A stretch of 64,000 nucleotides of DNA from Halobellus sp. MBLA0158 (GCF_041477585.1 NZ_JBGNYA010000001.1:2356001-2420000), one strand, 5' to 3'. Shown: positions 28,592 to 48,700, numbered from the stretch's first letter. The notes: generated by a model not told the origin, from the letters alone. Translations and numbers: made by a program.

Positions 28592-28599
<8 letters not shown>
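27547..28599 (+). CDS. DUF4350 domain membrane protein
   Basis: This 350-residue protein has an N-terminal membrane segment (about 12-32, VVGLAILVILSVGVGFAT). The extracytoplasmic DUF4350 domain contains AIVLSPDRSYTAAERSRI and EYVIDGGTLLVADDFGG, a glutamine-amidotransferase-like fold without catalytic residues. A second membrane segment (about 277-295, VVFGVIALLGIGLA) precedes a cytoplasmic helical tail (AEHPEWDDADVNRMIAGVI). DUF4350 proteins are regularly encoded with MoxR, DUF58 and DUF4129 proteins, as here. Its stop overlaps the MoxR start by 8 bases. Confidence 0.88.
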
Positions 28600-29689
<1,090 letters not shown>

Positions 29690-30572: not shown

Positions 30573-31055
30573 TCACGTCGTCTCACCAACCAATCCCATC
30601 CGTACCAACTGGTATCTGTGGATCACATAAAAAGAGCCGGCACTCAACGCGCCGAACGCGAGGACGACCTGCCAGAGCGGATCGAACGCCTCCGCGAGAC
30701 CCCAGACGACGGCGACGGCCCCCAGCGATCCGACAGAGAGGTCACGAACCGCACGGGACCGTGGGCGAGACTCGGCGGTGAAGTCGGCCGCGAGGAGTCC
30801 CCAGAGACCGATCTGTGCGAAGAGGCCGCCGGGGCCACCGAGTCCGGCGTGTGTCGCGGCGAAGGCGATCTGACCGAATCCGAAGGCGAAGTATCCGGGG
30901 ACGAACCACCAGCCGAAGCCGACACAGGCAGCGACGACGACACCGGGAATCCCGATCGAGAGGGTCAGTCCGATCAGGACGAGACCGACGACTCCGGCGC
31001 GGAAGAGCGAGTCCCCGACAGCGAGTCGCGAAAGCGAGACGCGAGTGCTAGCCAT
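30573..31055 (-). CDS. Polytopic membrane protein (160 residues)
   Basis: This protein has about four or five hydrophobic segments (VVGLVLIGLTLSIGIPGVVV, FVPGYFAFGFGQIAFAA, FAQIGLWGLLAADF, SVGSLGAVAVVWGLAEAF, VVLAFGALSAGSFYVI). It begins within the last bases of the DUF58 gene (8-base overlap) and shares 4 bases with the coiled-coil protein gene, so the three form one transcription unit reading 32499 to 29587. No family is recognised. Confidence 0.82.
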   Translation of the reverse strand: MASTRVSLSRLAVGDSLFRAGVVGLVLIGLTLSIGIPGVVVAACVGFGWWFVPGYFAFGFGQIAFAATHAGLGGPGGLFAQIGLWGLLAADFTAESRPRSRAVRDLSVGSLGAVAVVWGLAEAFDPLWQVVLAFGALSAGSFYVIHRYQLVRMGLVGETT

Positions 31056-32499
31056 CGGACGCGCCCTCCGGAGTCGGGGTTCGTGCCTCGTGTGCGCGCA
31101 GGAGGCCCGCGAGCCGGTCCTGCGGTGCGACCTCGAACGCGGAAACGCCAGTGAGTTTGTTCAGGCGCTTCCGGAACGACTCGAACTCCTCGTACTCGGC
31201 ATACGCCGATTCGACGTCCGATAGCGCCGACTCGAAGAACACCGTCGGCGTGATGAAAACGAGCACGGCGCCCTCGCGCCGACGCAGGGCTTTGACCGCC
31301 TCGTACAGTTCGGCCCTCGCGGTGTCGTCGGTCAGAATGACCGCGTACAGCGATCCCTGGATGCGGTCGACGTACCGCCTGACGGTCGCAAAGAGGGGAC
31401 GCGAACTGAATCGGTCCGTGTACTCGTTCGTCGAGCGGTAGTACGGCCGCAGGGTCGCGGCGTACTCCGTTCCGTCGTCTGCGATGATCGGTGTCTCGCG
31501 ACCGGCAGTGAGATTCCTGGTGGTGGATATCGATTCTGTGGACGATCCGTCCGTAGGTTCGAGAGTCCTGAGCCGGGAGCGGACGCGGCGGTGCTGGGAC
31601 TCGCCGGCTTTCGGCGGGAGGACGTTCGTCGCGCCGTCGTCGCCGACGGTGTAGAGTCCCACCGGATCCCCGAGTGCGTCGGCGCTGTTGACGTACGCCA
31701 GCCCGATTTCCCTGAGGAAGTCGAGTTTCGTCTCGCCGGCCGGTCCCGCGGCAGTTGTTCCGCGGTGGTCCAGAATGAGCGTCGTCTGTCTGGCCGACGG
31801 GACCTCGAAGTCGCGAATATGCGGGTGGTTCAGTCGCGCGGTCGCCTTCCAGTCGATCCGTCCGATGTCGTCGCCGTGTTGGTACTGGCGGATCTCCGCG
31901 GGCTCCAGTCCGGGACCGCGCTGGTCCGAACTGTGCTCGCCGAATCCGGCCGAGATCCGTTCGCCGCCCTGTCCGATGTGCATCCGCCGCGGGGCGCGGG
32001 GTTCGACGTCGAGTCGGAGCCGAGCGTCGTCGCCCTGTTCGAACGTTTCCGTGAAGAGGCCGTAGGCGGACTGGGCGGTGACGGACGGACGATCGAACGT
32101 CGTAGCCCCGGCGGTGGGGACCGAGAACTGCACGCGGGCGTGCGATGGGGCGTCCGCTGTGGGCGTGAGCGAACCGTCCGACTCGTCGGTCTCGTCGACG
32201 GCGAGCGGGAGCTGCGCGTCGACGGTCACCCCCAACGCTGTGGGCTCTGCGAGCTGGGCTCGGAGGGTCAACACGACGGGCTGGTCCGTCGGGACCCGCG
32301 TTCGGGACAGGGACTGCTCGACGCTGAGCGTGTCCGAAAGGCGCCCCAGCGCTGCGGCGAAGCGGGCTTGACAGCCGAGCAGGGCGCCGACCAGCACCGC
32401 AGCGGCGCCAACGAGAACGGGCGTGGCCAAGGCGACGCCGAAGAGACAGAGGACTCCGGCTACGCCGACCGCCGCCCAGAATCGAGGTGTCGGCCGCAT
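31048..32499 (-). CDS. DUF58 domain protein
   Basis: This 483-residue protein has two membrane segments at about 8-40. An Ig-like region (QPVVLTLRAQLAEPTALGV) follows, then the DUF58 core around residues 185-225 with GPGLEPAEIRQYQHGDDIGR and IDWKATARLNHPHIRDFE, and then a vWA-like part with TLILDHRG. DUF58 proteins are presumed MoxR partners in envelope assembly. The gene leads the minus-strand half of the block and has a TATA-like box at 32525-32531. Confidence 0.93.
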   Translation of the reverse strand: MRPTPRFWAAVGVAGVLCLFGVALATPVLVGAAAVLVGALLGCQARFAAALGRLSDTLSVEQSLSRTRVPTDQPVVLTLRAQLAEPTALGVTVDAQLPLAVDETDESDGSLTPTADAPSHARVQFSVPTAGATTFDRPSVTAQSAYGLFTETFEQGDDARLRLDVEPRAPRRMHIGQGGERISAGFGEHSSDQRGPGLEPAEIRQYQHGDDIGRIDWKATARLNHPHIRDFEVPSARQTTLILDHRGTTAAGPAGETKLDFLREIGLAYVNSADALGDPVGLYTVGDDGATNVLPPKAGESQHRRVRSRLRTLEPTDGSSTESISTTRNLTAGRETPIIADDGTEYAATLRPYYRSTNEYTDRFSSRPLFATVRRYVDRIQGSLYAVILTDDTARAELYEAVKALRRREGAVLVFITPTVFFESALSDVESAYAEYEEFESFRKRLNKLTGVSAFEVAPQDRLAGLLRAHEARTPTPEGASDG

Positions 32500-32524
32500 C
32501 CGTGCTGTCTCGTCCGATCCGAAG

Positions 32525-32531
32525 CTTAAAA
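32525..32531 (-). promoter_or_regulatory. TATA-like box for the DUF58 operon
   Basis: On the minus strand this is TTTTAAG, 26-32 bases before the ATG at 32499. Confidence 0.5.
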
Positions 32532-32573
32532 CGCTACCCCTTCGTCACGCAGTTGACGTGATATACGAAAGAC

Positions 32574-32580
32574 GTTTTAC
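32574..32580 (+). promoter_or_regulatory. TATA-like box for the DUF4129 gene
   Basis: GTTTTAC lies 27-33 bases before the GTG at 32607. The two divergent promoters are only about 45 bases apart, so the two half-operons could be co-regulated. Confidence 0.5.
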
Positions 32581-32606
32581 TTCCCGCCGTTCCTTGTTCT
32601 GTATCT

Positions 32607-34841
32607 GTGGTGTTGACAGGGGGAAGTGTGCGGATCGTCGTCGCCGCGCTGTTGGTAGTGACCGTCGCGCCGGCCGTTGCCACAGCCGATACGCAGCCGT
32701 CCGACTCCCCGATCGATAGCGATCGATCGGAGCGACCGTCATTCACTGACGTAGGTGTGGGAGGCGACCGAGCACAACAGACAGCGAACAACTCCACGAT
32801 TCAACACGAGAACCCCGAAGAGACCAGCGGCGACGGCGACCTCGAAGCCGTCCAAAACTGGCTCAGCGGTCGGATGGGCGAGACGCTAATCAACTGCACT
32901 CAGCGGACCACGCTGTCGGAAGAAGTCGCGTGTTCGCGGCTCGACGAGGAGTACCCCGAGTGGCTCTCGAACTACGTCACGACGGCGCGCGACACCGACG
33001 GGTCGGGCGACGATCGGCGCGCCTCACAGTTCAACGAGACGCAACAGGCTCACGACGAGTACCGTGATGCGGTCCGGGAGTTCCGGGAGACGCGACAGGA
33101 GTACGAGGAAGCCCGGGAAGACGGCGACAGGGAGCGGGCGCGAGAGTTAGCCCGTGATCTCTCACGGGCTGCGACAGGCGTCAACGAGACCGCGGGGACG
33201 TTGACCGAGCGGTTCGAGCAACTCGAAAACAGCACGGGCATCGAGTTCGGACCCGCAATTCGGAGTACACAGGGGGTGGCCCAGAACGCGACGGCGATCG
33301 CGACGACCGTTCGGGAGCGGGAGTTCGTCGCAACGACCCTGGAGGTAACCGCGAACCGGACATCGATCGCGTTCGACGCGCCGGTCCTGCTCACGGGCCA
33401 ACTGCGCACCCAAGACGCCCCGGTTTCGAACCGGACCGTCACGCTCGCGGTCGGGAGACAAACTGACACGGTTCGCACGGACGCAAACGGTCGGTTCGAA
33501 CTCCTCTATCGCCCGGTGCTGTTACCGCAATCGGCAGACTCCGTTTCGGTCGCGTATCGGCCGGCACCGAGGTCCCTTTACGAACGGTCCGAGGCGGCAG
33601 TTAACATCACCGTGCGAGGGACGGCGTCGACGGTGTCGGCGACGCTCTCGGAGACGACGGCGGTGTACGGTGATACGGTTCGCGTCACGGGACAGCTCCG
33701 CGCGGACGGACGGGGCGTCGGGAATATGCCGCTCCGGGTCGCCTTCGCCGACACCGCGCTGCGAGTCCGAACCGGCCCGGAAGGGAGCTACACCGCATCA
33801 GTCGACGTGCCGGCGGACGTCACTCCGGGGAATCAGTCGGTCTCAGTCGAATTGGCGGTCCGTGAACGCGCTGTCGAGCAGACCTCTGCAACCCGAACGG
33901 TTCGCGTTCGGTCGTCGACGACGAACCTCACGCTTCGTCCCGAGGAGATAACGTCGGAGCGGATCCTGGTCACGGCAGTGCTCGTCACCGACGAGGGTCG
34001 GCAGGTACGCGGCGAACCCGTTCAGTTGACCGCGGAGAACGGTAGCCGTACGGTCACGACGGATGCCGACGGCGCCTCGACCGCAGCGCTCGATGTCACG
34101 AATCAGACCGGGAACCTGACCGTTACGGCCGCGTACCGTCCGTCGGGCGGGAACCTCGATTCGTCGACCGCGCGCCTTCGCGTCAGTGTTCCCGCGAGTG
34201 CGACGACAGCGGACGGGACGCAGACCGAGGGAGCGAGCGACGGAAACGGAGACGGAGCGAACGGCGGCTTCCCCGGCACCAATCCGACCCGATGGATCGT
34301 CGCATTCGCCGCGGTCGGGTTCGTCCTGGCCGGCGGCACCGCCGTTGCGGCGAGAGCCTACGGCATTCGACCCCGTGACGTCCTCGGACGACTCCCCCTC
34401 GGCGCGCTCGGCCTGTTCGGAACCGGCCCCGGTCAGGCGGCCGAGACCGGCGACGGAGACGAGAGTGGGAACGATGAGGAGTCCGCAGAGGCCCCGTCGA
34501 CCACGGACGATGTATCCGGGGCCGGAGACGAGACGTCCGTGGTCAATGACGCCGAGGGACTGTTGGCCGAGGGACGGACTGATGAGGCGGTGATCACGAT
34601 CTACGAGGCAGTTCGTGCCAAGTTCGTCGACCAGTACGAACTGCTCCCCGGCGTGACGCACTGGGAACTGGTGGACCGACTGCGGGGACACGGAACCGAC
34701 GAGGTGGACGAATCAGTCGTCGGGCTCACGACGGCCTACGAGCAGGCGGCGTACGCCCCCGATGCGCTCGAAGCCGACGAGGCGACCGCGGCGATCGAAA
34801 CCGCGGAACGGCTGCTTTCCCAGACCGACCAATTTTTGTGA
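32607..34841 (+). CDS. DUF4129 domain protein with coiled coil and three Ig-like domains
   Basis: There is no ATG start; the GTG at 32607 suits the TATA-like box, and GTG 32628 preceded by AGGGGGA is an alternative. The 744 residues begin with a signal sequence (VRIVVAALLVVTVAPAVATA). A coiled coil follows at about 145-215 (EYRDAVREFRETRQEYEEAR), then three Ig-like domains (about 230-335, 335-430, 430-525), each with an SNRTVTL or NMPLRV type strand and GRFEL/GSYTA/GAST turns. A membrane segment lies at about 560-580 (WIVAFAAVGFVLAGGTAVAA). The DUF4129 domain is cytoplasmic at the C-terminus (EAVITIYEAVRAKFVDQYEL, THWELVDRLRG). DUF4129 usually sits with MoxR and DUF58, as here. It probably links extracellular binding modules to the ATPase side. 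Confidence 0.9.
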   Translation: MVLTGGSVRIVVAALLVVTVAPAVATADTQPSDSPIDSDRSERPSFTDVGVGGDRAQQTANNSTIQHENPEETSGDGDLEAVQNWLSGRMGETLINCTQRTTLSEEVACSRLDEEYPEWLSNYVTTARDTDGSGDDRRASQFNETQQAHDEYRDAVREFRETRQEYEEAREDGDRERARELARDLSRAATGVNETAGTLTERFEQLENSTGIEFGPAIRSTQGVAQNATAIATTVREREFVATTLEVTANRTSIAFDAPVLLTGQLRTQDAPVSNRTVTLAVGRQTDTVRTDANGRFELLYRPVLLPQSADSVSVAYRPAPRSLYERSEAAVNITVRGTASTVSATLSETTAVYGDTVRVTGQLRADGRGVGNMPLRVAFADTALRVRTGPEGSYTASVDVPADVTPGNQSVSVELAVRERAVEQTSATRTVRVRSSTTNLTLRPEEITSERILVTAVLVTDEGRQVRGEPVQLTAENGSRTVTTDADGASTAALDVTNQTGNLTVTAAYRPSGGNLDSSTARLRVSVPASATTADGTQTEGASDGNGDGANGGFPGTNPTRWIVAFAAVGFVLAGGTAVAARAYGIRPRDVLGRLPLGALGLFGTGPGQAAETGDGDESGNDEESAEAPSTTDDVSGAGDETSVVNDAEGLLAEGRTDEAVITIYEAVRAKFVDQYELLPGVTHWELVDRLRGHGTDEVDESVVGLTTAYEQAAYAPDALEADEATAAIETAERLLSQTDQFL

Positions 34842-34862: not shown

Positions 34863-35879
34863 ATGAGTCGGGACTCGGACTGGCGGTTACTTCTCCCAGA
34901 GCCCGTCCGGCATCTCCCCGCAGACCTGGCGGCTGTCGTCGTCCTCGCAGTGGCGACGACGGTGGCCGCGACCGTCCCGGGCGTCCGCGAGACCCCGCTT
35001 CGGATCATTCTGGGGCTCCCGTACGTCCTGTTTGTTCCCGGGTACGCGCTCGTGGCCGCGCTGTTTCCGGAAGCCGGCGACCCTCCAGCGGAGGACGACG
35101 TCGACGACGCCTCGAGCCGTGAGGGAATCGACGGGATCGAGCGCGTCGCGCTCTCCTTCGGGCTGAGTATCGCGGTCGTCCCGCTGATCGGACTCGTGTT
35201 GAACTTCACGCCGTGGGGAATTCGACTGGTGCCGATCCTGGTGTCTGTGACTGGCATCACGATCGTCCTCACGGCGGTCGCGGCCCGTCGCCGAGCCCAG
35301 TTGGACGAGGTCGACCGATTCCGGGTCCCGTATCGGGCGTGGATCGCCGGTGCGCGGCGGGAGCTATTCGAGCCGGAATCCAGGACCGATGCCGCACTCA
35401 ACGTGCTCTTGGTCGTGAGTATCCTGCTCGCGGTCGGCAGCGTCGGCTATGCGGTCGCAGTCCCCGGACAGGGAGAGGCGTTCACCGAACTGTATCTCCT
35501 GACCGAGACCGAATCGGGCGAACTCGTCGCCGACGACTACCCGACCGAGTTCACGCAGGGCGAGACGCGGTCGCTGATCGTCGGCATCGGCAACCACGAA
35601 CACCAGACGGTCCAGTACACGCTGGTGTCGCAACTCCAGCGGGTCGAAATCCAGAACAACACCACGCTCGTCCGGGAACGAAACGAGCTGAATCGGTACT
35701 CGCCGACCGTCGCGGACAACGCCACCTGGCAGGCTCGGGACACGATCACACCCACGATGACCGGCGAGCGCCTCCGACTCACATACCTCTTGTACAAGGG
35801 ATCTGCGCCGCCGAATCCGACGGTCAACAGTTCGTATCGGGAGGTCCACCTCTGGATCAACGTCACCGCAAGCCAATGA
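34863..35879 (+). CDS. DUF1616 domain membrane protein
   Basis: This 338-residue protein has two hydrophobic pairs (LAAVVVLAVATTVAATV with GLPYVLFVPGYALVAALF, and LSFGLSIAVVPLIGLVLNF with VPILVSVTGITIVLTAV), a fifth span at about 182-200 and an extracytoplasmic beta-rich domain ending SYREVHLWINVTASQ. The PGYALVAALFPE motif marks DUF1616. These proteins are common in archaeal surface-glycoprotein and envelope loci, though their biochemical role is unknown. It lies 21 bases after the DUF4129 gene, with a GAGG-type ribosome binding site near 34850. Confidence 0.88.
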   Translation: MSRDSDWRLLLPEPVRHLPADLAAVVVLAVATTVAATVPGVRETPLRIILGLPYVLFVPGYALVAALFPEAGDPPAEDDVDDASSREGIDGIERVALSFGLSIAVVPLIGLVLNFTPWGIRLVPILVSVTGITIVLTAVAARRRAQLDEVDRFRVPYRAWIAGARRELFEPESRTDAALNVLLVVSILLAVGSVGYAVAVPGQGEAFTELYLLTETESGELVADDYPTEFTQGETRSLIVGIGNHEHQTVQYTLVSQLQRVEIQNNTTLVRERNELNRYSPTVADNATWQARDTITPTMTGERLRLTYLLYKGSAPPNPTVNSSYREVHLWINVTASQ

Positions 35880-35958
35880 TCACTGCTAGCTACCCACTAC
35901 GTGTCTGTTCGGCATCCGAGTGCGGGAACCACGCAGTACCGACTGCTTCTCACTGCTG

Positions 35959-38916
35959 ATGGGATATCGACGAGCACTTTCCTTCGGGTGGGCCCGGCGG
36001 GACACCTTGGCCGTCGTGGTGATCGCGTTGACGGTCGCGTTCCTCGTCGGGGCCTCGCTGCTCGGCGTCACCCTCGGCGCGCAGACGACGGCGATCGCCG
36101 CGGAGTTCGAGACCACCTACGAACTCGCGCAGGGGACTGACGCTCCGGCGGGAGAGCAACCGCCCCCGGTCCAGTTCACGCTCGGCACGGTTTCCGGCGC
36201 GGGCCAACGGGTGACGGTGATCGGCATCCCAGCGGATGCGCCGAATATCACGGTCCGCGGACAGCGGATTACGTTCCCGACAGCGGAGCGCGGAACCGTA
36301 GCGGCGGCGACGCCTGAGGGCGATGCCGTGTTTTCGGGGCGCGACGGCGTAGCCGTGCAATCGCGAGCCTCGCATACGCTGTTGCCTGATTCGTGGTACG
36401 TCGCCCACCCGAGCACGGCACGCGAACTGGGGAACACGGAGTCGTATGCGATCCGATCGACGCCGACGCCGCGGACACCGCTTCTGTCCGCGCTACTGTT
36501 CTTCGTCTATGGGTCCGCCGAGTTGGTCGACGTGCTCCGGCTGGCGGCCGTCGGCGGCGGCTTGCTGGTCGGCGTGACGGTGTTCAGCGTCGTCCGAGTC
36601 ACCGTCCGGGAACGCCGCCCGGACATCGCCGTCCTGCGTTCGACGGGCGCGACGCCGCGGCAGATCGTCAGTATGTACGGGCTCCGGGCGCTCGTCCTCA
36701 CGGCAATCGGACTCGCGGTCGGCTACGGGTTCGGCCTCATCTTCGTCCGTGCCGTCGTCAACGTCGCCCTCGCGTACGGCCTGCCGACGACGCTCAACGT
36801 ACAGCTCACGCCGCGAGTGTTGCGGATCCTCGTCCCCGCGGGTGGCCTGTTTCTGGCCGTCGGGGCCGTCTCGGGCGTCGGGGCCGCCTATTCGGCAACG
36901 GCGCACGATCCACAGCTCCGACCGCGGGTGACGAACGACGAGCGCCGCTCGCTGGGGCCGCTGTCCCGAATCCGTCGGCTCGGACGGCTGCGGCTGTTAG
37001 GGTGGAACACGCTCGTCCCGACGGCCGCGACGCTGACAGTGTTTATGTGTGCGCTACTCGTGCTGACGGCGGTCGCAGGCGCGTTCGGACCGTTGGCGTC
37101 AGGAACTGGGCGAACGATCACCGAGCCGGGAACGCCGCATCCGGTCGCCAGCAACGTCCCGGAATCGTACGCGGACGCGCTCCGCGCGCAGGGCGCCGAG
37201 GCCAGCCCCGAGATCCTCCTGTTTGAGGTGTACCGCGGCGATCCGATCGTCGCCCGCGGCGTGAACTTCTCTGCGTATCGGTCGTTTGCGGACATCGAAT
37301 TGCGGACCGGATCGTTGCCGGCCGATCGAAGCGAGGCGTTGATCGGTGCGGACCTGGCGCGGTCGACCGGACTGTCGTCCGGAGAGACGATCGTAATCGG
37401 TGGGAGCACCGCGCCCGCGATGACACGTCTGGAGATCACGGGGACGTTCTCCGGGCGCGGGATCCAAGACGATCAGTTGCTCGTCAGTCTGCCGACCGCG
37501 CGTGACCTCGCGAACCGACCGGCGGATTCGGTCCACTTCGTGCGAGTCCGCGGGCTCGGTGTCGATTCGGCGACCGGCTCGACGGTCGTCGTCACCGACG
37601 CGCGCCTCACGCGGCGGGACGGGCAGACCGGTGTCGTCGTTTCGGTGACGAATCTCGGCCTGCGAGAAGCAACGCGGAGCCTGGATGTGACCGTCGGCGA
37701 GACGACGCGGACGACGTCGATCACGCTGTCGAGTCGCCGGACGACACAGCAGTTCGTGCCGTTCGATCTCCGGGACAGCGAGACGTATCGCCTCGTCGTC
37801 GGCGACATCGACAAACAAGCCGCTCTCGACGACGGCGAGGCGACAGGGGGATCCGCGTCAGCCAGGGGGCTATCGATCGACGTTCCGGACCCAGTTCCGG
37901 TGAACAGTACGCCGCAAATCGTCGTCCTGCGGGGCGGGACTCCGGTCCCGAACGCGACCGTATCAGCCAGTGGTCAAACGGCGGTGACGAACGACCGGGG
38001 AGCGGCCCGCATCCGCTTCGAATCGGTCGGTGAGACGGAAATAACTGCGACGAGCAGCGGGAACCGCACTACAGAGACGGTCTCGGTGACGCGGGACGCC
38101 GCGCGACGTCCGACGCTGTCCGTGGCGATCTCACCTGACACGCCGAGCATCTTCACGCGACCCGATGCGACAGTTCGACTGGCGAACCCGTGGGCGACCG
38201 ATCTGCAGTCGTCGGTAGTCGTCAGCGCGCCGGGCGGTGAACGGTCGCGGAACGTCACGATCCCTGCCGGCGAATCGACCGAGTACGGGATCTCGCTCCC
38301 GCGCCAACCGCCGGGGGGCTACACCGTCACGGTGACCGCGGACGCGGAGAGCCAAGCATCGACGACGTACACGGTCCGCGGCGACGAGCGGTTGGGCGCG
38401 GCGCTCGCCAGCAGCGGTCGCTACACCGCCGGCAGCGGGATCACCCGGGCGATCCAGCTCGTGTTCGGAAACATCGAAGCGCTCGTGTTGGCGATCGTGA
38501 CGCTGCTCGCGGTGATGACCGTCGGTAGCACGACCGCGGCGCTCACCCGCGCCGTCCACACCGCGAAAGACGAGATCGGGATCCGGCGGGCGACGGGGGC
38601 AACCCCGCGGGACGTGTTCGTCGCCGTGTTCGCCGACGCGCTCAAAATCGGCGCCGTAGCGAGCGTTCTGGCTTTCGCCCTCGGCTTCGGCATCGTTCGC
38701 TGGCTGCTGTCGATCGGCGAACTCCGGGTGTTCGGACTGGCTCTCGATCCGGTCCTCGCGCCAAGTATCGTGGCGGGCGCGCTCGGTATCGGTGTCGGAG
38801 TCGCGATCATCAGCGCGCTGTTGGCGGCCGTCGGGACGGTCCGGGCCGCACCGGCGACGCTGCTCGTGGACAGAAATATATCGGTGTCCGAAAAACGGGG
38901 TGATGCGAATGAGTAG
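35959..38916 (+). CDS. Large FtsX-type ABC permease with CARDB/Ig-like ectodomain (copy 1)
   Basis: From the ATG at 35959 the protein is 985 residues. A first membrane span (about 17-37) leads to an extracytoplasmic segment. A first FtsX core (about 180-310) has the motif ERRPDIAVLRSTGATPRQIV. A MacB-like periplasmic-type segment (GSLPADRSEALIGADLARS, GRGIQDDQLLVSLPTARDLA) follows. Next come a CARDB-like domain (VVVTDARLTRRDGQTGVVVS) and an Ig-like domain (NATVSASGQTAVTNDRGAAR). The second FtsX core has KDEIGIRRATGATPRDVFVA. The ectodomains are the same classes used in the two giant surface proteins. It likely pairs with the paralogue at 41389 and the ATPase at 40681, moving or releasing a lipid-linked or exported surface substrate. 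Confidence 0.9.
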   Translation: MGYRRALSFGWARRDTLAVVVIALTVAFLVGASLLGVTLGAQTTAIAAEFETTYELAQGTDAPAGEQPPPVQFTLGTVSGAGQRVTVIGIPADAPNITVRGQRITFPTAERGTVAAATPEGDAVFSGRDGVAVQSRASHTLLPDSWYVAHPSTARELGNTESYAIRSTPTPRTPLLSALLFFVYGSAELVDVLRLAAVGGGLLVGVTVFSVVRVTVRERRPDIAVLRSTGATPRQIVSMYGLRALVLTAIGLAVGYGFGLIFVRAVVNVALAYGLPTTLNVQLTPRVLRILVPAGGLFLAVGAVSGVGAAYSATAHDPQLRPRVTNDERRSLGPLSRIRRLGRLRLLGWNTLVPTAATLTVFMCALLVLTAVAGAFGPLASGTGRTITEPGTPHPVASNVPESYADALRAQGAEASPEILLFEVYRGDPIVARGVNFSAYRSFADIELRTGSLPADRSEALIGADLARSTGLSSGETIVIGGSTAPAMTRLEITGTFSGRGIQDDQLLVSLPTARDLANRPADSVHFVRVRGLGVDSATGSTVVVTDARLTRRDGQTGVVVSVTNLGLREATRSLDVTVGETTRTTSITLSSRRTTQQFVPFDLRDSETYRLVVGDIDKQAALDDGEATGGSASARGLSIDVPDPVPVNSTPQIVVLRGGTPVPNATVSASGQTAVTNDRGAARIRFESVGETEITATSSGNRTTETVSVTRDAARRPTLSVAISPDTPSIFTRPDATVRLANPWATDLQSSVVVSAPGGERSRNVTIPAGESTEYGISLPRQPPGGYTVTVTADAESQASTTYTVRGDERLGAALASSGRYTAGSGITRAIQLVFGNIEALVLAIVTLLAVMTVGSTTAALTRAVHTAKDEIGIRRATGATPRDVFVAVFADALKIGAVASVLAFALGFGIVRWLLSIGELRVFGLALDPVLAPSIVAGALGIGVGVAIISALLAAVGTVRAAPATLLVDRNISVSEKRGDANE

Positions 38917-40552
38917 TCGTCGTCACCAGGTCGGACTCGCGATCGTCGCCCTCCTCGGAGTCGCACTGGCCTTCCGTGCGGGGCCGCTCTACTGGAGCCA
39001 GTATCCCTCGACGTTGGACGGATTCAATTACGCCGCCAGCGCGCAGACGGCGATGGACACCGGCACGCTCGGGCTCACCGGACGGGCCGACAATCTCTTT
39101 TTCACGGCCGTATTCGCAGTCGCCGGTCTGGTGTTCGATACGCCTGCGCTTCGTGTGACCCAGCCGGCGGCGACGGTGATCGGGACCGGAATCTGTCTCG
39201 TCGGGGTGGCGATCGCGCGTCGTGCAGTCAAGGAATCCGCGACAGTTTCGGTGAGCGCGTCCGCGGTCGCGCTCGTGGTCGCCGGGCTTCTGGCCGTCGA
39301 GGGCCTATTCCTCCGTCGGACGACCGTTCCCGACTCCGACTTGGTCGGCATTCTCTTCACGCTGCTCGTCGCCGTCTCGCTCCAGTACGCTTACCGGACC
39401 GGTCGGCGACGGTGGTACGGGATCTCCGGCCTCTTCCTGGTCATTTTCCCGATCCTCCACACGTTCACGTCGTTCGTCGTTGGACTGGTGATCACGGGGC
39501 TGACCGCGCGGCACGTCTCCCGGCGGCTCTCGCTTCGGTCTCTCGTGGGCGGCGTAGTGATCGCGGGCGGATTCTGGGCCTATATGGCGATCTACTACCG
39601 GACGGCCGAGACGTCGCTGTCGCTGGCGGTGCCGTACGTCGATCGCGTCACGGCGTATCCGGGGCTGTTCGTCGCGTGGGCGATCGTGCTGGTCGTCGGG
39701 ATCGTCTGGCTCCAGCACACGAGCCTCCGGATTCGGCGGGCGATCTACCTCGGGACGATCGGTGCCTTCTTCCTCGTCGTCGCGCTCAACGCCTTCACGC
39801 CGATCTACCCCGGGACGGCGAGCACGCCGCAGATCGTCCTCGCTCTCGTCGCGCTCCTAGCATTCGTCGCGCTGAGCGCAGCGGTGTCTCTCGATCTCAT
39901 CAGCGAGGGGGACGGCGGCACGATCCTCCTGGCGCTCTTTCTGTCACCGGCAGTGATCATCGGATTCAGTCTGACTGCCTCCCTCACGGCCGAGTACTTC
40001 GCGACGGCGATGCGCGCACAGACGTTCCTGCATTTCCCCGTCGTCGCTGTCGCCGGCGTGACGCTCGCCCGCTTGCTCAGCCGCGATGGAAGCAGCGGCG
40101 TCCGCCGTTTCCTCCGACTCGCGATCGTCGTCGTGGTCGTCGTCGCGACCGTTACGACGGCGCCGCTCGCGTTCGTCAATATGGACACCGGTTCGGTCCC
40201 GAGCACGACGCTCGGGTCGGAGTACGAGAGCGTCGAGTTCGTGAGCACGGAGTACTCGGGCGCGTGGACGACCGATCACTCCCTGAGTCGGGTCGGAGGG
40301 CACACCTTCGGGGCGAACGTCTCCGTCACGCCCACCGCGTCCTGGCTCTCGGGCGGACCGTCACCGCGTTGTGCCGTCCTCTCCCAGCAGTCGTGGACGA
40401 CGACCGGTGCGCACCTGTTCCCGAGCGGTCCGGAGACGGTCCCGTCCGACGTGTATCGGGAGTGGACGGGTTCCCGAAACGTCGTCTACACCGCTGGTGG
40501 ACTCGACCCGACGGTCGTGTCGCTGCCGCGGTCGAACGCGACGGTATGTTGA
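38903..40552 (+). CDS. Polytopic membrane protein, GT-C glycosyltransferase-like
   Basis: This 549-residue protein has about twelve hydrophobic segments and an extracytoplasmic C-terminal domain from about 440. The first loop, YWSQYPSTLDGFNYAASAQ, has an acidic residue where GT-C enzymes place their catalytic Asp, but no STT3 WWDYG motif is present. The second loop RRTTVPDSDLVGILF also carries acidic residues. The C-terminal domain contains CAVLSQQSWTTTGAHL. It overlaps the FtsX gene by 14 bases (8 if the ATG at 38909 is used), so it is translated from the same mRNA. GT-C glycosylation is a reasonable guess; a transporter is not excluded. Confidence 0.78.
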   Translation: MRMSSRRHQVGLAIVALLGVALAFRAGPLYWSQYPSTLDGFNYAASAQTAMDTGTLGLTGRADNLFFTAVFAVAGLVFDTPALRVTQPAATVIGTGICLVGVAIARRAVKESATVSVSASAVALVVAGLLAVEGLFLRRTTVPDSDLVGILFTLLVAVSLQYAYRTGRRRWYGISGLFLVIFPILHTFTSFVVGLVITGLTARHVSRRLSLRSLVGGVVIAGGFWAYMAIYYRTAETSLSLAVPYVDRVTAYPGLFVAWAIVLVVGIVWLQHTSLRIRRAIYLGTIGAFFLVVALNAFTPIYPGTASTPQIVLALVALLAFVALSAAVSLDLISEGDGGTILLALFLSPAVIIGFSLTASLTAEYFATAMRAQTFLHFPVVAVAGVTLARLLSRDGSSGVRRFLRLAIVVVVVVATVTTAPLAFVNMDTGSVPSTTLGSEYESVEFVSTEYSGAWTTDHSLSRVGGHTFGANVSVTPTASWLSGGPSPRCAVLSQQSWTTTGAHLFPSGPETVPSDVYREWTGSRNVVYTAGGLDPTVVSLPRSNATVC

Positions 40553-40645
40553 GTTCTGACACTCGTCTTTGGCCGTATGTAGCACCGATGCCGCCCATAG
40601 GTCCGGAACGAACAGAGTCAGTTCAATCAGACGACGGGAGCAAAT

Positions 40646-40654
40646 GATATACAT
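40646..40654 (+). promoter_or_regulatory. TATA-like box for the ABC ATPase gene
   Basis: GATATACAT lies 27-35 bases before the ATG at 40681, so the ATPase and second permease may have their own promoter. Confidence 0.5.
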
Positions 40655-40680
40655 ACCGGACCCGACAATCGAGGCACACG

Positions 40681-41370
40681 ATGGCCGGCCCAGTCCTCCG
40701 TGGCGAAGAACTCACCGTCGAACGAGGCGGGACCCGTATTCTCGATTCCGTCTCGCTGTCGGTCGATCCCGATGTCTCGTTGCTCGTCCGCGGCGCCAGC
40801 GGCGCCGGCAAAACGACGCTTTTCAACGTGCTCGGGCTCTTGACCACGCCGACGAGCGGCTCGCTGTTCGTTCGCGGCGAGGACGCGAGCGAGCTCCCAG
40901 AGCGGAAGCGTGCCGTCGTCCGCCGGGACACGATCGGCTTCGTCTTCCAGGATTTCCAGTTGATCCCGGACCTCTCGGCCTGGGACAACGCCGCGTTACC
41001 GCAGGACCACACCGGCAGCCGCGACGAGGACTGGCTCGGCGAACTCTTCGGCGCCTTGGGGATCGAAGACCTCGCGGACCAGTATCCGGCGACGCTGAGC
41101 GGCGGCGAAAAACAGCGAGTCGCCATCGCCAGGGCGTTGGCGAACCGCCCGGCGGTCGTACTGGCCGACGAGCCCACCGGCCAGCTCGATCCGAACACGG
41201 CCGAGCGCGTGCTCGATCTGCTCTTCGAGGTGAAATCACAGACCGACACGGCGCTCGTGTTGATCAGTCACGACCGAGGGCTGGCGCATCGGTTCGACGA
41301 GACGGTCCTGCTTCGGGACGGTCGGCTCGTCGAAGATAGCGACGATATCGACTACTCGCTGCCGGAATGA
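40681..41370 (+). CDS. LolD/MacB-type ABC transporter ATPase
   Basis: This 229-residue protein is a complete nucleotide-binding domain: Walker A GASGAGKT (38-45), Q-loop Q90 in FVFQDFQ, signature LSGGEKQRVAIARAL (from 139), Walker B VVLADEPTG (159-167) and switch H197 in LISHDRG. The short length and QLDPNTAERVLDLLFEV placement match the LolD/FtsE/MacB class that works with FtsX permeases. It is the only ATPase in the block and lies 18 bases before the second FtsX permease, so it probably serves both. Confidence 0.95.
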   Translation: MAGPVLRGEELTVERGGTRILDSVSLSVDPDVSLLVRGASGAGKTTLFNVLGLLTTPTSGSLFVRGEDASELPERKRAVVRRDTIGFVFQDFQLIPDLSAWDNAALPQDHTGSRDEDWLGELFGALGIEDLADQYPATLSGGEKQRVAIARALANRPAVVLADEPTGQLDPNTAERVLDLLFEVKSQTDTALVLISHDRGLAHRFDETVLLRDGRLVEDSDDIDYSLPE

Positions 41371-41378
41371 GATCGTTC

Positions 41379-41383
41379 GGAGG
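41379..41383 (+). promoter_or_regulatory. Shine-Dalgarno sequence for the second FtsX permease
   Basis: GGAGG lies 5 bases before the ATG at 41389, marking an internal operon start. Confidence 0.55.
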
Positions 41384-41388
41384 CTGAA

Positions 41389-44300
41389 ATGCGGTTCGAG
41401 TCCACGCTCGTGGCGTCGTGGTCGCGCCGGGAGTGGCTGAGCGTCGCCGTGATCACCGTCACGGCCGCGTTCCTCGTCGGCTCCGGCGTCTTGTTGCTCA
41501 CGGTCGGCTCGTACACCTCGACGCTCGAAGACGACCTCGGAAGCTCCGCGTCTGCGACGTACTACGGCTCCTACGAGACGGCGCAGACGTCCGCAGACGG
41601 GGACGACATCGTCTTCCCGCTCGTGCGTGTGTCCGTCGACGGCGACGGAGCCCACCGTGCGGTGGGGATTCCGCCCGACGCACCCGAGCGGATCGAGTCG
41701 GCGTCGGTCGCGTGGGAGTCGGCCGCGATCCCGCGGCCGCCGAGCGAGGGTCTCGCTGGCCCGGTGACGCAGCCGACGACACAGGAGGTCGACGGGGCGT
41801 CGATGCGCGTGACGCCGCATTCGACCGATTCACGTCTCTTCGCGTCGACGTGGTACATCGGAAGCGCCGAGACCGTCGCGAGCCTCGGCGACGCCGGCGC
41901 GCTGGTGATCGATTCCGGTACTGCCGGACAGAGCGGTGAGCAGCCGACGTGGCGACTCGACGGAGTCCCACTGATCGCGGCACTTCCGTTCCTTCTCCGT
42001 GGGGTCACTCAGATCATCCGAACGCTCTCGCTGGCAGTCGTCGGGAGCGGTGTCCTGATTCTCGTCGTCGTCTACAACGTCACGCGGATGTCGCTTCGCG
42101 ACCGCCGCCAAGAGATCCGGGTCGCCCGCGCGACGGGGATTTCGCCCCTCCGATTGTTCGGCCTACTGGAGGGTCGGGTCGCGACCGTGACCGGGACCGG
42201 CGTCCTACTCGGATTCGCGGTCGGGCTCATCGCCACGAACGCGGTGATCAACGCGGCCACGTACGCCGGGTTGCCCGTCACGCTGCGGACGGTCCTCACC
42301 CCGGAGATACTCCGGTTCGTTCTCCTCGTCAGTGGATTCTTGTTCGGGATGGGACTGCTCGCGGGTGCGCTGGCGGCGGTGCCGGTGATTCGACGCGATC
42401 CCGCCGCGCTCGATGGGTCGGGTCGCATACGGGGTACCGGGCGCTCGCTCCCCGAGCGGCTCGTGTCGCTAGCGCGCCCGACGTTCGTCACCTGGCGAGC
42501 GCTGGTCCCGACGACGGCGACGCTCGCGGTGTTCGTGCTGATCGTGCTCCTGATCTCGGCGATCGGCGGGGCGGTGGCGCCGCTGGCGACCACCTCCAGC
42601 GGAACAGTCGTCGAAAGCGGCGCGCCGCACCCGCTGAACAGCCGACTCAGCGAAGACTACGCGAGCGTCCTCCGAGGTCAGAACTTCACCGCGAGCCCGG
42701 AGGTCCTCTACGCGCAGACGCTCGACGGCGATCCGTACCTGATCCGCGGCGCGAACTTCACCTCCTTCAGCGCCGTCACGGGTGCCCGGCTACAAACCGG
42801 CCACGCCCCGCGCGCGACCGATCAGGCGGTCATCGGAACGAGCCTCGCAAGTACACTCGATCTCGGCGTCGGCGAGACGATCACGGTCGGCGGCAGTGTC
42901 ACGCCCGGCGTCCGCCGCGTTCGTATCGTCGGAACGTTCGCCGGAGACGGGATCACGGACGATCAGCTCGTCGTCCCCCTAGCTACGGCGCAGGAGTTAG
43001 CCACAGGAACGGGTCAAGTCCACCTTATCCGGACGAACGGAACGACGCAGGCGTTCGACGACTTGGCCCAGGACTCGGGTGGCATCGCCGTGACGGGTCT
43101 GTCGGGACAATCGTCGGTCGCAGCGGGGAGTGACTACACGGTCACGGTGACGACACAGAACCTCGGCGACGAGCGCGACTCCCGTACGGTGACCGTTCGC
43201 CTCGGGAATCGGAGCCAAACAGTCGAGGTCACCGCGGCAGCCGGGAGTACCACGCGGACGGACGTGACGTTCGAGAGCTTGGAGCCGGGTACCTACACCG
43301 TGGCGTCCGACGGGGTTACCAAGTCGCTCGATGTGTACTCTCCGCGTGCGTTCGTCATCCCGCAGGAGTATCCCGATCGCGCACCCCCGGGAGTGACGCT
43401 GATCGTACCGGCCGCGCTCCGGAACGGGACAACGGTCCCGGACGCGACCGTGACGCTGGGGGAACGACGTGCCCGGACCACGGACGAAGGGGTCGCACCG
43501 ATCCGCGTACCCACCGTCGAAGGTGAGTACACCATCACCGTCGAGAAGGAGGGATACGCGACAGTGACTCACACTCTGGTGGTCGAAGACGGGGCCGCAC
43601 AGGAACTGACCGGCCGACTCGACGTCCAACCCACCACTGGCACCAGACTGACCGACCCGACCGTCGAGATCCAGCTCGGGAACCCGTGGGGGACGTTCTT
43701 CGTTCGGAACGTCTCGCTCGTCACGCCCTCGACGGTCGAAACGCGAACCGTCGAGATGGCCGGTGGAAACGTCACGCGAATCACGGTCCCGGCCGCCGAT
43801 GCGGGCTTCGATCGCCGAATTGCGCCCGGATCGTACGATCTGCGATTGGTATCGGACGGCACGGTGCTCGCGACGGCGACGTATCGTGTCAGCGGCGACG
43901 AGCGTGTCGCCGCCACGCTGGCTTCCCAGGGCGAGTATTCCTCGGGCACGGCCATCGGACGCGCGATCGAGAACGTCTTCGGCAACGTTCAGGTCCTGTT
44001 CTTGGTGATCGTTGGACTCGCGGGCCTCAGCACAGTGGGCGGGACGACGGCGACGTTCGCCTACGCGGTCCATACGAGCCGTCGAGAGATCGGTATCTAT
44101 CGCGCGACCGGGGCATCTCCGCGGCGCGTTCTGCGATTGGTGTTCGCCGACGCAATTCGCGTCGCCGTTCCAGCCGCGATAGTCGCGTTCGCTCTCGCGT
44201 ACGCCGTCCTGCGCGGACTGGTGTGGGCGGATCTACTGGTCGTGTTCGGCGTCCGTCTGTCGGTGCCGCTGTCGCCGTTCGCGGTCGGCGCGACCCTACT

Positions 44301-44394
44301 CGGAGCGGTCGCACTCGCCGCAGTGAGTGCGCTCGGCGTCGCTCTGATGATCGCCTACGCGACCCCCGGCAGGCTGCTTGCTGCGGGTCGCTGA
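41389..44394 (+). CDS. Large FtsX-type ABC permease with CARDB/Ig-like ectodomain (copy 2)
   Basis: This 1001-residue paralogue of the 35959 permease has the same domain order. It has an N-terminal membrane span (about 17-40), FtsX core 1 with RDRRQEIRVARATGISPLRL, a MacB-like segment (GHAPRATDQAVIGTSLAST, GDGITDDQLVVPLATAQELA), a CARDB-like domain (SDYTVTVTTQNLGDERDSR), an Ig-like domain (VPDATVTLGERRARTTDEG) and FtsX core 2 with SRREIGIYRATGASPRRVLR. The two copies flank the ATPase and the GT-C-like gene, as expected of a heteromeric complex. Carboxypeptidase-regulatory-like turns in the ectodomain match modules of the giant protein encoded 1.4 kb further on. Confidence 0.9.
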   Translation: MRFESTLVASWSRREWLSVAVITVTAAFLVGSGVLLLTVGSYTSTLEDDLGSSASATYYGSYETAQTSADGDDIVFPLVRVSVDGDGAHRAVGIPPDAPERIESASVAWESAAIPRPPSEGLAGPVTQPTTQEVDGASMRVTPHSTDSRLFASTWYIGSAETVASLGDAGALVIDSGTAGQSGEQPTWRLDGVPLIAALPFLLRGVTQIIRTLSLAVVGSGVLILVVVYNVTRMSLRDRRQEIRVARATGISPLRLFGLLEGRVATVTGTGVLLGFAVGLIATNAVINAATYAGLPVTLRTVLTPEILRFVLLVSGFLFGMGLLAGALAAVPVIRRDPAALDGSGRIRGTGRSLPERLVSLARPTFVTWRALVPTTATLAVFVLIVLLISAIGGAVAPLATTSSGTVVESGAPHPLNSRLSEDYASVLRGQNFTASPEVLYAQTLDGDPYLIRGANFTSFSAVTGARLQTGHAPRATDQAVIGTSLASTLDLGVGETITVGGSVTPGVRRVRIVGTFAGDGITDDQLVVPLATAQELATGTGQVHLIRTNGTTQAFDDLAQDSGGIAVTGLSGQSSVAAGSDYTVTVTTQNLGDERDSRTVTVRLGNRSQTVEVTAAAGSTTRTDVTFESLEPGTYTVASDGVTKSLDVYSPRAFVIPQEYPDRAPPGVTLIVPAALRNGTTVPDATVTLGERRARTTDEGVAPIRVPTVEGEYTITVEKEGYATVTHTLVVEDGAAQELTGRLDVQPTTGTRLTDPTVEIQLGNPWGTFFVRNVSLVTPSTVETRTVEMAGGNVTRITVPAADAGFDRRIAPGSYDLRLVSDGTVLATATYRVSGDERVAATLASQGEYSSGTAIGRAIENVFGNVQVLFLVIVGLAGLSTVGGTTATFAYAVHTSRREIGIYRATGASPRRVLRLVFADAIRVAVPAAIVAFALAYAVLRGLVWADLLVVFGVRLSVPLSPFAVGATLLGAVALAAVSALGVALMIAYATPGRLLAAGR

Positions 44395-44515: not shown

Positions 44516-45652
44516 ATGCCCTCTGCTCGTGCGATTCTCGCTGTACTCCTCATTGTTTCTCTGAGTATTGCCCCAGTCACGGGGCAGTCCAGCGAGGAAT
44601 ACGAGATCACGCTCGATCAGGAGACCGACATCCCAGAACGGACGCTCGATACTGACTCCGGAGAGTTCACTATCTCTGTTGTCGGGCGATACGCCAAGGG
44701 CGGGACCGTCGAGGTTTCGACATCTGCCCCGTCTGGTACATCGTACGCAATCCGTCTCATCGACAGTCAGGAACGACTCCGAGCGAGCGCATACGAGGAC
44801 GGCGACGGCAATGCACGCTTCTCGCTTGACCGCTACGCGGCCGGCACCTACGCGATCGTCATCACCGATGAAACCGACGCTGACGACGTCCACGCGCTCA
44901 AACCGCTCGTGATATACGGGTACACCGTCACGCAACGCACGCCGAACGAAACGGAGACAGATTCGACCCTCGACGTCGAGTTCAGTCTCACCAAGGCGGA
45001 CGACGTTGATGTAGACGAACCCCCGGCGAGCGTTGAGGTTGGTCTCGGCAACGACTCCACGTCCATCACTACGGAGGCGACACGCACTGAAGATCTCAAC
45101 TATACCGCCGAGATCGACACGAGCGCGCTCTCGCCTGGCGACTACCGTCTCTATACGGGTGTACAACGCGACAACACCATCTACGGGTATCAGGAACTCA
45201 TCGGCGTCAACACCTATCAGGTCTCCGTAGTCGAAGCCTCGACGGAGACTCCGACAGCAACCGACACGCAGACCACGACGGGTGGAGCGGACGGCACCCA
45301 ATCGGGACCGGGCGCGCCACCGGCCGGAGCCCAAACGACAGCACCCGCGGCCACAAACACCCCAGAGAATAGAACAACGACGACCACGATGAGCCCAAAT
45401 TCGACTCACACCGCGACGACGGAACCGATCTCCGTCACCGATACCACGGGAACGTCATCGATATCGACACGACAAACACCAAGCGATGATGACTCGGCGA
45501 GTGCGCCCTCGCCGGCGTCCGACTCGGCTACGTCGGAGGTGTCTCAGACGGAAGATGGATCATCGACGCCGGTGAGTACGCCGGTATTGCCCGACGGTGC
45601 TGTGTTCGGGTTGTGTCTCGTCGCCGTGGCAGTGCTGTCTCGGCTTCGATGA
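44516..45652 (+). CDS. Surface glycoprotein with Thr/Ser-rich stalk (paralogue A)
   Basis: This 378-residue protein has a signal peptide (AILAVLLIVSLSIAPVTG), two beta-rich domains (about 30-145 and 150-240) and a Thr/Ser/Pro-rich stalk of about 100 residues. It ends with a short hydrophobic segment (VFGLCLVAVAVLSRLR). The core phrases KPLVIYGYTV, LSPGDYRLYTGV and RYAAGTYAIVI match QPVVVSGYDF, LQPGEYRLYASA and SLDSGTYLLAL in the protein at 54010-55125, so the two are paralogues. The C-terminus looks like a degenerate PGF-CTERM (LPDGAVFG). A membrane-anchored cell-surface glycoprotein is the best call; the function is unknown. Confidence 0.85.
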   Translation: MPSARAILAVLLIVSLSIAPVTGQSSEEYEITLDQETDIPERTLDTDSGEFTISVVGRYAKGGTVEVSTSAPSGTSYAIRLIDSQERLRASAYEDGDGNARFSLDRYAAGTYAIVITDETDADDVHALKPLVIYGYTVTQRTPNETETDSTLDVEFSLTKADDVDVDEPPASVEVGLGNDSTSITTEATRTEDLNYTAEIDTSALSPGDYRLYTGVQRDNTIYGYQELIGVNTYQVSVVEASTETPTATDTQTTTGGADGTQSGPGAPPAGAQTTAPAATNTPENRTTTTTMSPNSTHTATTEPISVTDTTGTSSISTRQTPSDDDSASAPSPASDSATSEVSQTEDGSSTPVSTPVLPDGAVFGLCLVAVAVLSRLR

Positions 45653-45753: not shown

Positions 45754-48700
45754 TCAGCGCCGCCTGAAGAGGAATATCACTCCAAACAGCGCTACCACAG
45801 CGGGGACGAATCCGAATCCGGGCGCGCCAGTGCCACTCTCAGTCGTTTCTTCGATGACGGTCACGGTGCCTGCCTGAACCGAGTTATCTCTGTCACTCTG
45901 ATTCACAACGGTGATCTCGTACTCTCCAGCGCTACTGAATGGGATGCCTATCGGCAACTGAACGGTTTTAGTTGAATCTCCGGAGACGTTCACCTCGTCG
46001 CCGAATTTTTGTTGTCCGTTCGCCAGGACTCGGAGGGGTATGTTACCAGGTTCGTCACCGGTGTTTTGCACTGTCACATTGACATAGACGCTTTCGCCGA
46101 CCGTGACGTTCTTCGGAGATACGTCCGCGTCCACGAGTGTGACGTTCGCAGGCTTCGGCACGACAGTCACCGACCCATCCCAAACACTGTCTCCGGCAGC
46201 GGAGAGGGTCAGATCATACGCGCCAGCCGTCTCAACGGTCGTTCGAAGCGTCGTGGTAGCGGTACTACCCGACTCGACTTCCACGTTTTCCGATACCGAG
46301 ATCGTCCCGTCCACCGAAGTCAGTTCGACGGTCGTAGTCCCGACGGCTCCACCCTGATTATTGAGCTCGACATCGACGCTGATCGGATCGCCTGCAGTGA
46401 CCTCAGTCTCCCGGAGGCTTACGTCAGTGATGGAGATGTCCGATTTCGGCTCGGTGGCGTCAGTCTCGTTCAGCGTCACAACGACCGTTTCGTCGCCACC
46501 CTCTTCTGTGACGTTCACTTCTCTGATGTAGGTCTCATCTACGTACTGATCCGCGTTCGGCGGCCGTTCGACCCGAATCGTGTAGTTGCCGGCGGCCTCG
46601 ATACCGCGATGATCACCCGCTGTGAAGTAGCCCTGCTCGTCTGTCAGACTTCCAAGTCTGGCACTCTCGACACCGGGCGTGCCGGACTGATTGGCAAAGA
46701 TGGTCACGAGCGCATCCCCGACTGGATCCCCGGACTCGTTTTCGACGCTGACGTGGAGTATGCCGTGGGAGTCCGGAACCGTTTGTGTCTGCAGATTCCG
46801 ATCCTCAGTATCGACGTCGACTGTGGGAAGTTCGTAGAAGTCGGTCACGCCGTCGCGTGGCGCAACTTCGCCCGTTTCCGAATCCCGCTGGATGACGGTG
46901 AGACTGTGGCTCTGATTGGCTCCAACCCCGACGGTGAACCATCCGGTGTCGTTCGTTTGTCCGGTCGGGAATCCGGCTTGGCTCCGGCCGACGAAGACGT
47001 CGAAGTCGGTCAGGGCAGCTCCCGATTCGTTCGCCAATCGGCCGGTGACGTTGACGCGGTCTCTGACGACGAGAGTGACGTTGCGCTTTTCGCTTACGTC
47101 GATTCTCGTCGCGTTCCACGCGTACTCGTCGGTCTCTCCGACACCGATACGGAGCGTCCCGTTGACCTCGATGCCGGGCGAGTTGCTCCCGTTGAGGATG
47201 ACCTCGCCGTCGTCGTTCGTCGTTCCCGGGTGGTGTGCCGAGGCGGGACCCGAGTACGTGTTCAGGTCGACCGCCGCGTCCGCGACGGGCTCGCCGTCGC
47301 TGGTCTCGACGGTGATGTTCACGAGATGGGCCTGCGGGAGCGTCAGATCACCCACGCTCCGGTCCTCGTCTTGGACTTCGGTCACCCCGAAGGTGTGCAG
47401 ATCGGGACGGCCGTCCTTCGGGAAGTTCGCTCGTCCGTCCTCCCAGTCGGTCTGTTTGAACGCGAGTGCGTAGAACTGGTTCGGTTCGGGATACAGCTCA
47501 AAGTGACCGGTCTCGTTCGTGAGTCGGTGATCGCCGCCATCGCCGAACAGCTCCATCGTGTATCCGGCCGTGTCGTTGCCGTTCCGGTAGTCGACGCTGC
47601 CGAAGACGGTCACGTTGCGGTTGAGCGTGATGTTGACAGTGTCATCCGAGGTCACTTCGATCCGTTCGGTCTCGGTTCTGAGATCCGCCTCGTCGGGAGC
47701 CGCGGCCCGGATGTCGACCGAACCGTTCACCTCGACGGTGAAGCTGCCGTCGTCGACGACCGTCTCGCCGCCCCACTGATAGGCGTCGTTCGCGGTACTC
47801 CAGAGCCGGACCGTCGCGTTCTCGACTAGGTCGTCGTTCGGACCGACGACGTTTACCGTGAGATTGTGCGGTTCGGGGAGCGTGACGTTCCCCAAGTCTC
47901 CCTCCGCGCCGCTCGTCACGGTGGAGATGGCGTAAAAGTCCGGCACACCGTCACGCGGGTAGGGGAGTCTGGCCGGGCTCCCCTCGTCGGCCTGCACGAA
48001 TCCGAGGTGGTACGCGCCCTCTGCCGGGACCTGTGCGTCGAAGAAGCCCGTCTCGTCGGTGTGAACCGTCGCACCGGCAGAGCGGTCTTGCTCTGCCGCG
48101 ACCACCTGAATGCGCTCGTCGCCTGCGGGCGTCACTCCGTCCGGCTGACGAATTGTGCCGTTCACCCTCAGTGCCTCCGCGAGCTGGATGGTGACGTTCC
48201 CGGGCTCGTCGACGACGATGTTCCGACGGTTCGCGTCGGAGAGACCGGAATCGTCGGGGACGTCGACGTAGACGTCGATCGAACCGTTCACTTCGATACC
48301 GGGCTCATCCGCGCCGTCGAAGACGAACGACCCGTTTTCGTTCGTCTCGCCAGCAACTCCGAGAGCGAAGTTCTCCTCGACGTCGTTATCGGACACGTAG
48401 ACGGGGATGTCAGATGCGTTCGTGCCGTCTGGGTTCTTCACGGTGATGTCGAACGGATGGCCGACGCCGAGCTGCTGTTCGGCCACCTGTTTGTCTGTCG
48501 CCTCGGTCTGGATGACGGTCAGTGATTGGACGTCGGGGACTCCGTCCTGTGGGAAATCGACGTCGGTCCCTTCTCCATCCTGTCGGAAGCCAAGCTCGTA
48601 CGTCGAGTTCGGCGCGAGCGTGAGTTCGTACTCCCCGTTGTCGACGATCGGTGATTCATCGTTAATCGCCCCCTCGCGCGACCGGGCGAACACTTCGCCG

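Follow-up and report, generated by a model that had tools for sequence, protein, structure and literature searches.

A four-gene haloarchaeal cassette of giant FtsX permeases, one ATPase and a predicted GT-C glycosyltransferase

Introduction

The surface of the archaeal surface layer (S-layer) has no ATP of its own. What, then, might two permeases of the ATP-binding cassette (ABC) type, each about 1000 residues long and bearing a large outer domain, do there? The question is raised by a 64,000-nucleotide stretch of Halobellus sp. MBLA0158 (NZ_JBGNYA010000001.1:2356001-2420000; hereafter the window), which comes from a genome record of 3.29 Mb and has Halobellus clavatus as its best named match (73% identity for the first permease, permease A). 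The best reading of our data is that positions 35959 to 44394 encode a type VII ABC system, of the class that includes MacB, LolCDE and FtsEX, belonging to a distinct haloarchaeal family. The permeases are co-inherited with a membrane protein of the predicted GT-C glycosyltransferase type, whose gene mostly overlaps that of an adjacent permease, and nothing else in our data says as much about function as this association. We found no description of permeases of this kind in the literature searched.

Results

The open reading frames of the window bear out the arrangement first noticed there, with one ATPase and one GT-C-like protein lying between two giant permeases. The cassette has four genes and spans 8.5 kb:

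35959-38916, strand +: permease A, 985 residues; clade A in the permease tree, adjacent to the GT-C gene
38909-40552, strand +: polytopic homologue of GT-C-type glycosyltransferases, 547 residues; starts 8 nucleotides inside the permease A stop
40681-41370, strand +: LolD/YbbA-like ABC ATPase, 229 residues; catalytic motifs intact
41389-44394, strand +: permease B, 1001 residues; PEGA/CARDB-like immunoglobulin (Ig) domains; clade B, adjacent to the ATPase

An alternative start for permease A, a GTG, lies upstream at 35920.

Both permeases have the length and the doubled core originally attributed to them, with two FtsX cores in each of A and B (Pfam, 7e-22 and 2e-18). The corresponding family, PF02687, was present in 30/30 family members scanned, and permeases A and B each match it twice. 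About eight transmembrane helices (TM) per permease are predicted from hydropathy and the structure model, and A and B share one architecture: TM1, a first extracellular domain (ECD1), FtsX core 1 (TM2-4), TM5, a second outer core domain (PCD2), three Ig-like domains (at about residues 533-812 of permease A) and FtsX core 2 (TM6-8), with PCD2 and the Ig stalk placed between TM5 and TM6. Profile searches of the PDB matched YtrF, LolF, LolC, MacB and YbbP, and the fold of residues 1-324 of permease A matched YtrF (Z 16.8) and LolC (Z 16.1). MacB_PCD was matched by 2/30 members (7e-9) and by neither window permease.

The outer modules had been taken for inserted CARDB, Ig and carboxypeptidase-like domains. 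An Ig ectodomain of CARDB- and carboxypeptidase-like type is indeed there, but it consists of three Ig-like domains of constant length rather than variable insertions. In the window proteins PEGA scored above the Pfam cut-off in permease B (4e-7), and CarboxypepD_reg (A) and CARDB (A and B) scored under it; across the family Pfam found CARDB in 13/30 members (best 1.7e-8), CarboxypepD_reg in 12/30 (best 7.6e-7) and PEGA in 4/30. Structure prediction, suggested in the preliminary description as a check on the CARDB/Ig fold, agreed with it: AlphaFold gave a confident all-beta ectodomain at about residues 637-805 of permease A, with a predicted local distance difference test score (pLDDT) mostly of 80-88, in a model whose remainder is weak (overall pLDDT 45.8). 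Within it, residues of about 713-809 matched the CARDB domain of P. furiosus PF1109 (3idu, Z 12.3, 98 residues aligned, root-mean-square deviation 2.3), with a second CARDB fold match to 2kl6 (Z 11.5). The Ig stretch totals 267-316 residues in 56/56 permease sequences, and its identity (0.26-0.35) is comparable to the 0.31 of ECD1; we therefore regard it as a fixed part of the permease family. Its near-constant length across the 56 homologues rules out a local addition.

To place the family we sampled one genome per species, with neighbourhood windows of about 10 kb on each side, and scored the permease as present where either of two single-protein queries matched; few candidates were scored per genome, so that copy numbers are lower bounds. 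The permease occurs in 60/293 sampled genomes of the order, from 22/87 genera, and its full-length homologues measure 950-1056 residues, every one with the ectodomain. No full-length permease was found beyond the order in a phylum sample of 393 genomes, in which the outside matches were short, being mostly FtsX cores of permeases of about 400 residues and a few Ig segments. The spread is patchy: the four other genomes of the same genus in the order sample lack the permease, and genome G609 has it. Degenerate copies also exist, one with an in-frame TAG (G265:C1:1018953-1021817) and another consisting of short permease and GT-C remnants (G158:C3:57289-58603).

A tree of 56 permeases shows a GT-C-adjacent clade (A) and a mostly ATPase-adjacent clade (B), with single permeases between them, and these two old clades rule out A and B as a recent paralogue pair. 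Some genomes yielded the A type alone (G075, G143 and G289 among them), G040 and G065 yielded only the B type, and three or four giant permeases are present in each of G090, G152, G171 and G190, all of family f17. In some genomes with a single permease match, the locus holds that permease together with a single ATPase gene and a single GT-C gene (L034, L045, L066, L073). Two FtsX halves in every chain, together with the A-only and B-only genomes, point to each permease being a complete pseudo-dimeric transporter.

These observations bear on the first proposal for the locus, in which A and B formed a heterodimer with the ATPase and their ectodomains served as a scaffold by binding the giant surface proteins encoded nearby. 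The window holds two such giants, both on the minus strand. One (15777-26852, 3691 residues) has CARDB and many ASH/HYDIN-type Ig domains, a C-terminal TM and a Thr-Pro repeat near its N-terminus; the other (45754-53778, 2674 residues) has GLUG, beta-helix, Big_1, CarboxypepD_reg and CARDB domains and a PGF-CTERM-like end. The joint placement of A, B and one ATPase in a single gene run and the CARDB-type domains of both giants would fit that proposal, but we consider it highly improbable. Each chain already carries both halves, single-permease genomes are common, and these, with A and B loci about 220 kb apart in G234, rule out an obligate heterodimer. As to the binding of giants, we compared 40 permease loci with 40 controls taken from genomes of the same kinds: large non-permease reading frames were not enriched near permeases (6/40 loci and 14/40 controls). 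A search among four proteins showed negligible sequence similarity between ectodomains and giants (best E 0.005), and homologues of the 2674-residue protein persist in congeners that lack the permease. Neither part of the proposal is supported.

The polytopic protein between the permeases has no Pfam or NCBIfam match in the window, and just 1/25 members of its family match PMT_2 by themselves. Aligned as a profile with haloarchaeal PMT_2 proteins, however, the family gave a probability of 92% (hhalign, E 6e-7, 371 columns), against at most 0.6% for four controls: DUF1616, the permeases, a neighbouring family with no relation to it, and PMT_2 in reverse. Asp37, which follows TM1 in the first outer loop, is invariant in 25/25 members and falls, in the alignment, on the acidic position (DE) that PMT_2 proteins conserve. 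Because of this profile-profile homology and the alignment of Asp37, we assign the protein to a divergent GT-C glycosyltransferase family, with an activity that is predicted.

After the ATPase, the GT-C protein is the most constant partner of the permease. It occurs in 56/293 genomes of the order sample; 55 genomes have both, five have the permease alone (G040, G065, G077, G099, G121), one has the GT-C gene alone and 232 have neither. The start of the GT-C gene overlaps the permease stop by 4-14 nucleotides in 26/29 adjacent pairs, and in 6/13 pairs of GT-C and ATPase genes the GT-C gene in turn runs 4 nucleotides into the start of the ATPase gene. In the genome with GT-C alone (G237; L093, 7838-10821) the gene is split in two pieces and the search returned no giant permease, as if a cassette had been lost and left this remnant. 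Further afield, a distant member of the phylum (G528; L092:8816-12008) has a GT-C-like protein beside DUF1616 and an MprF/AglD-type flippase-like protein, an arrangement that suggests an older link between GT-C and DUF1616.

The ATPase is closest to the LolD (3.5e-54), FtsE (3e-50) and YbbA (5e-49) models, all under their equivalog cut-offs, and its Walker A, Q-loop, signature, Walker B and H-loop motifs are intact.

The cassette is bordered by DUF1616 and by the gene of a predicted surface protein, in an island whose remaining genes occupy 27547-34841:

27547, strand +: DUF4350, island gene (Pfam)
28592, strand +: MoxR AAA+, island gene (Pfam)
29587 and 30573, strand -: two further island genes
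31048, strand -: DUF58, island gene (Pfam)
32607-34841, strand +: DUF4129/MG-like membrane protein, upstream of DUF1616
34863-35879, strand +: DUF1616 membrane protein, 338 residues; upstream border of the cassette
44516-45652, strand +: predicted surface protein n378, 378 residues; downstream border, TIGR04279-like below cut-off, C-terminal TM

From DUF1616 to n378 the intergenic distances are 79, -8, 128, 18 and 121 nucleotides. A paralogue of n378 lies at 54010-55125 (minus strand), and the pair brackets the 2674-residue protein on either side.

Two congeners carry the collinear island without the cassette (L187 in G612, L188 in G607), in the order DUF4350, MoxR, a 329-residue gene, DUF58, DUF4129, DUF1616, n371 and a homologue of the 2674-residue giant, and only about 120 nucleotides separate DUF1616 from n371 there. 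In a third congener (G606, L185:10679-13867) the genes after DUF1616 encode an ATPase of LolD type and a pair of ordinary MacB/FtsX permeases of about 400 residues, with no GT-C gene. These collinear islands and the replacement show a discrete cassette and a slot open to different type VII ABC modules; the cassette, 8.5 kb long, was either gained here or lost in the congeners. In a tree of DUF1616, cassette-bearing and cassette-free loci are intermixed. The presence of close homologues without ectodomains in the same context, named at the outset as grounds for refutation, is partly borne out by this ATPase with two ordinary permeases, but these are not close homologues of A or B.

The slot of G606 bears on whether the cassette is simply a MacB/YknZ-like pump for efflux or lipid extraction (of peptide, lipid or drug), with the Ig domains as a fixed stalk that takes the place of an adaptor, and with GT-C as an associated but distinct activity. 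The FtsX/MacB fold, the LolD-like ATPase and the occurrence in this slot of an ordinary module lacking GT-C all agree with such a pump. The near-complete co-occurrence with GT-C and the overlaps of 4-14 nucleotides speak against it, and we judge it unlikely.

The island itself prompts another account, in which the permeases would be FtsEX-like mechanotransducers that drive or gate a secretion or cell-shape complex of MoxR, DUF58, DUF4350 and DUF1616, with GT-C merely glycosylating its components. DUF1616 lies within 10 kb of 19/40 permease loci and 1/40 controls, and MoxR (13/40), DUF4350 (13/40), DUF4129 (12/40) and DUF58 (8/40) were each found near permeases and in 0/40 controls; at least two of the five module genes lie within 10 kb at 14/40 permease loci and 0/40 controls. 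DUF4350, MoxR, vWA proteins and DUF1616 have been proposed to make up a new complex for secretion or membrane remodelling in archaea (PMC5898192), and the window island resembles this predicted arCOG01314 system in combining DUF4350, MoxR AAA+, DUF58 and DUF1616 (Pfam); it differs in that Table 2 of that study has no FtsX permease, ABC ATPase or GT-C protein. Several of the proteins encoded from hvo_2160 to hvo_2173 in Haloferax volcanii are N-glycosylated, the DUF1616 protein HVO_2173 among them (PMC8241124), and hvo_2160-2176, with HVO_2173 and the ABC transporter HVO_2163, is implicated in cell shape (PMC10869688); its equivalence to the window island is a lead. At most permease loci, however, the module is absent within 10 kb, the islands of G607 and G612 do without the cassette, and the tight coupling is to GT-C rather than to the module. 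We therefore regard this account as rather unlikely, if somewhat less so than a simple pump.

Discussion

The four-gene cassette suggests an ATP-driven machine that modifies or delivers surface molecules. We propose that each giant permease alone would be a complete pseudo-dimeric transporter, like YbbP of E. coli, and that the binding and hydrolysis of ATP would set in motion both the outer core domains and the stalk of three Ig domains, which would extend toward the S-layer and set the reach. As TesA does for YbbAP, the GT-C protein, co-inherited and translationally coupled, would serve as the partner enzyme, possibly in complex with the permease. The permease may extract a membrane-embedded substrate or present it to GT-C, candidates being a lipid-linked sugar or a surface protein anchored by lipid or TM, and GT-C may transfer sugar on the outer face near the S-layer. 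That the cassette is a type VII ABC system with complete permeases, whose work at the outer face is coupled to the GT-C enzyme, seems to us only slightly less probable than an even chance.

Several observations weigh against this proposal. The structure model of the GT-C protein has a pLDDT of 37 (three sequences), and its profile matched no solved structure in the PDB by sequence. The co-occurrence of permease and GT-C (Fisher 2e-52) is among genomes related by descent, and the value overstates their independence. Two genomes with permease B (G040, G065) have no detected GT-C gene, and clade B, at least, may work without it. Glycan-synthesis genes are just weakly enriched near permeases (17/40 and 6/40, p 0.013), in a list chosen from the test loci. 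A single ATPase, as a dimer, would serve either A or B, but in several genomes it does not adjoin permease A, and the sharing is therefore only presumed.

Archaeal O-glycosylation pathways are unknown (PMC8241124), and in the predicted secretion island of DUF4350, MoxR and DUF1616 the sole assigned energy source is MoxR. A GT-C-coupled permease cassette within that island offers a genetic handle on both. It is tempting to speculate, though with more doubt than the proposal above, that the cassette represents a class of ABC machine not described before: a mechanotransducing type VII permease would be joined to a membrane GT-C glycosyltransferase, and cytoplasmic ATP would power extracellular glycan transfer or the presentation of lipid-linked sugar at the S-layer. 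If true, this would extend the type VII class to a glycosyltransferase partner in archaea.

The known partners of type VII ABC systems in E. coli are an esterase, an amidase activator, a lipoprotein chaperone and an outer-membrane duct. Such systems perform mechanical work outside the membrane, with the function set by the partner (PMC12646458). LolCDE, MacB, YtrEF and FtsEX share the FtsX core fold and a LolD-like ATPase with the cassette, but their single-core chains of about 350-650 residues dimerise and have neither an Ig ectodomain nor a coupled GT-C gene. The ADOP permeases (TIGR03434) are duplicated FtsX permeases like those described here, yet the matches are weak (scores of 26.7 and 28.5 bits, where the cut-off is 622.3) and ADOP has no Ig domains. 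On the enzyme side, the GT-C family shares with haloarchaeal PMT_2 (PF13231) the 371-column homology and the acidic residue of the first outer loop, and differs in a conserved C-terminal region of its own that contains an invariant Cys and Trp.

The closest parallel is YbbAP-TesA of E. coli, in which a long chain with duplicated FtsX halves and outer domains works with a YbbA ATPase, to which ours is LolD/YbbA-like, and with a partner enzyme at the outer face, the place we propose for GT-C; the fold of YbbP goes back to a duplicated half of four helices (PMC12646458). The partner enzyme in E. coli, TesA, is a soluble esterase, whereas the partner here is a polytopic GT-C protein, which occupies that place among the conserved neighbours examined, none of them an esterase. 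YbbP has about 800 residues, 10 TM and no Ig stalk, compared with about 1000 residues, eight predicted TM and three Ig domains in the giant permeases, which lack the linking TM5-TM6 pair of YbbP. By analogy, the giant permeases probably work like YbbP, while standing outside the YbbP class.

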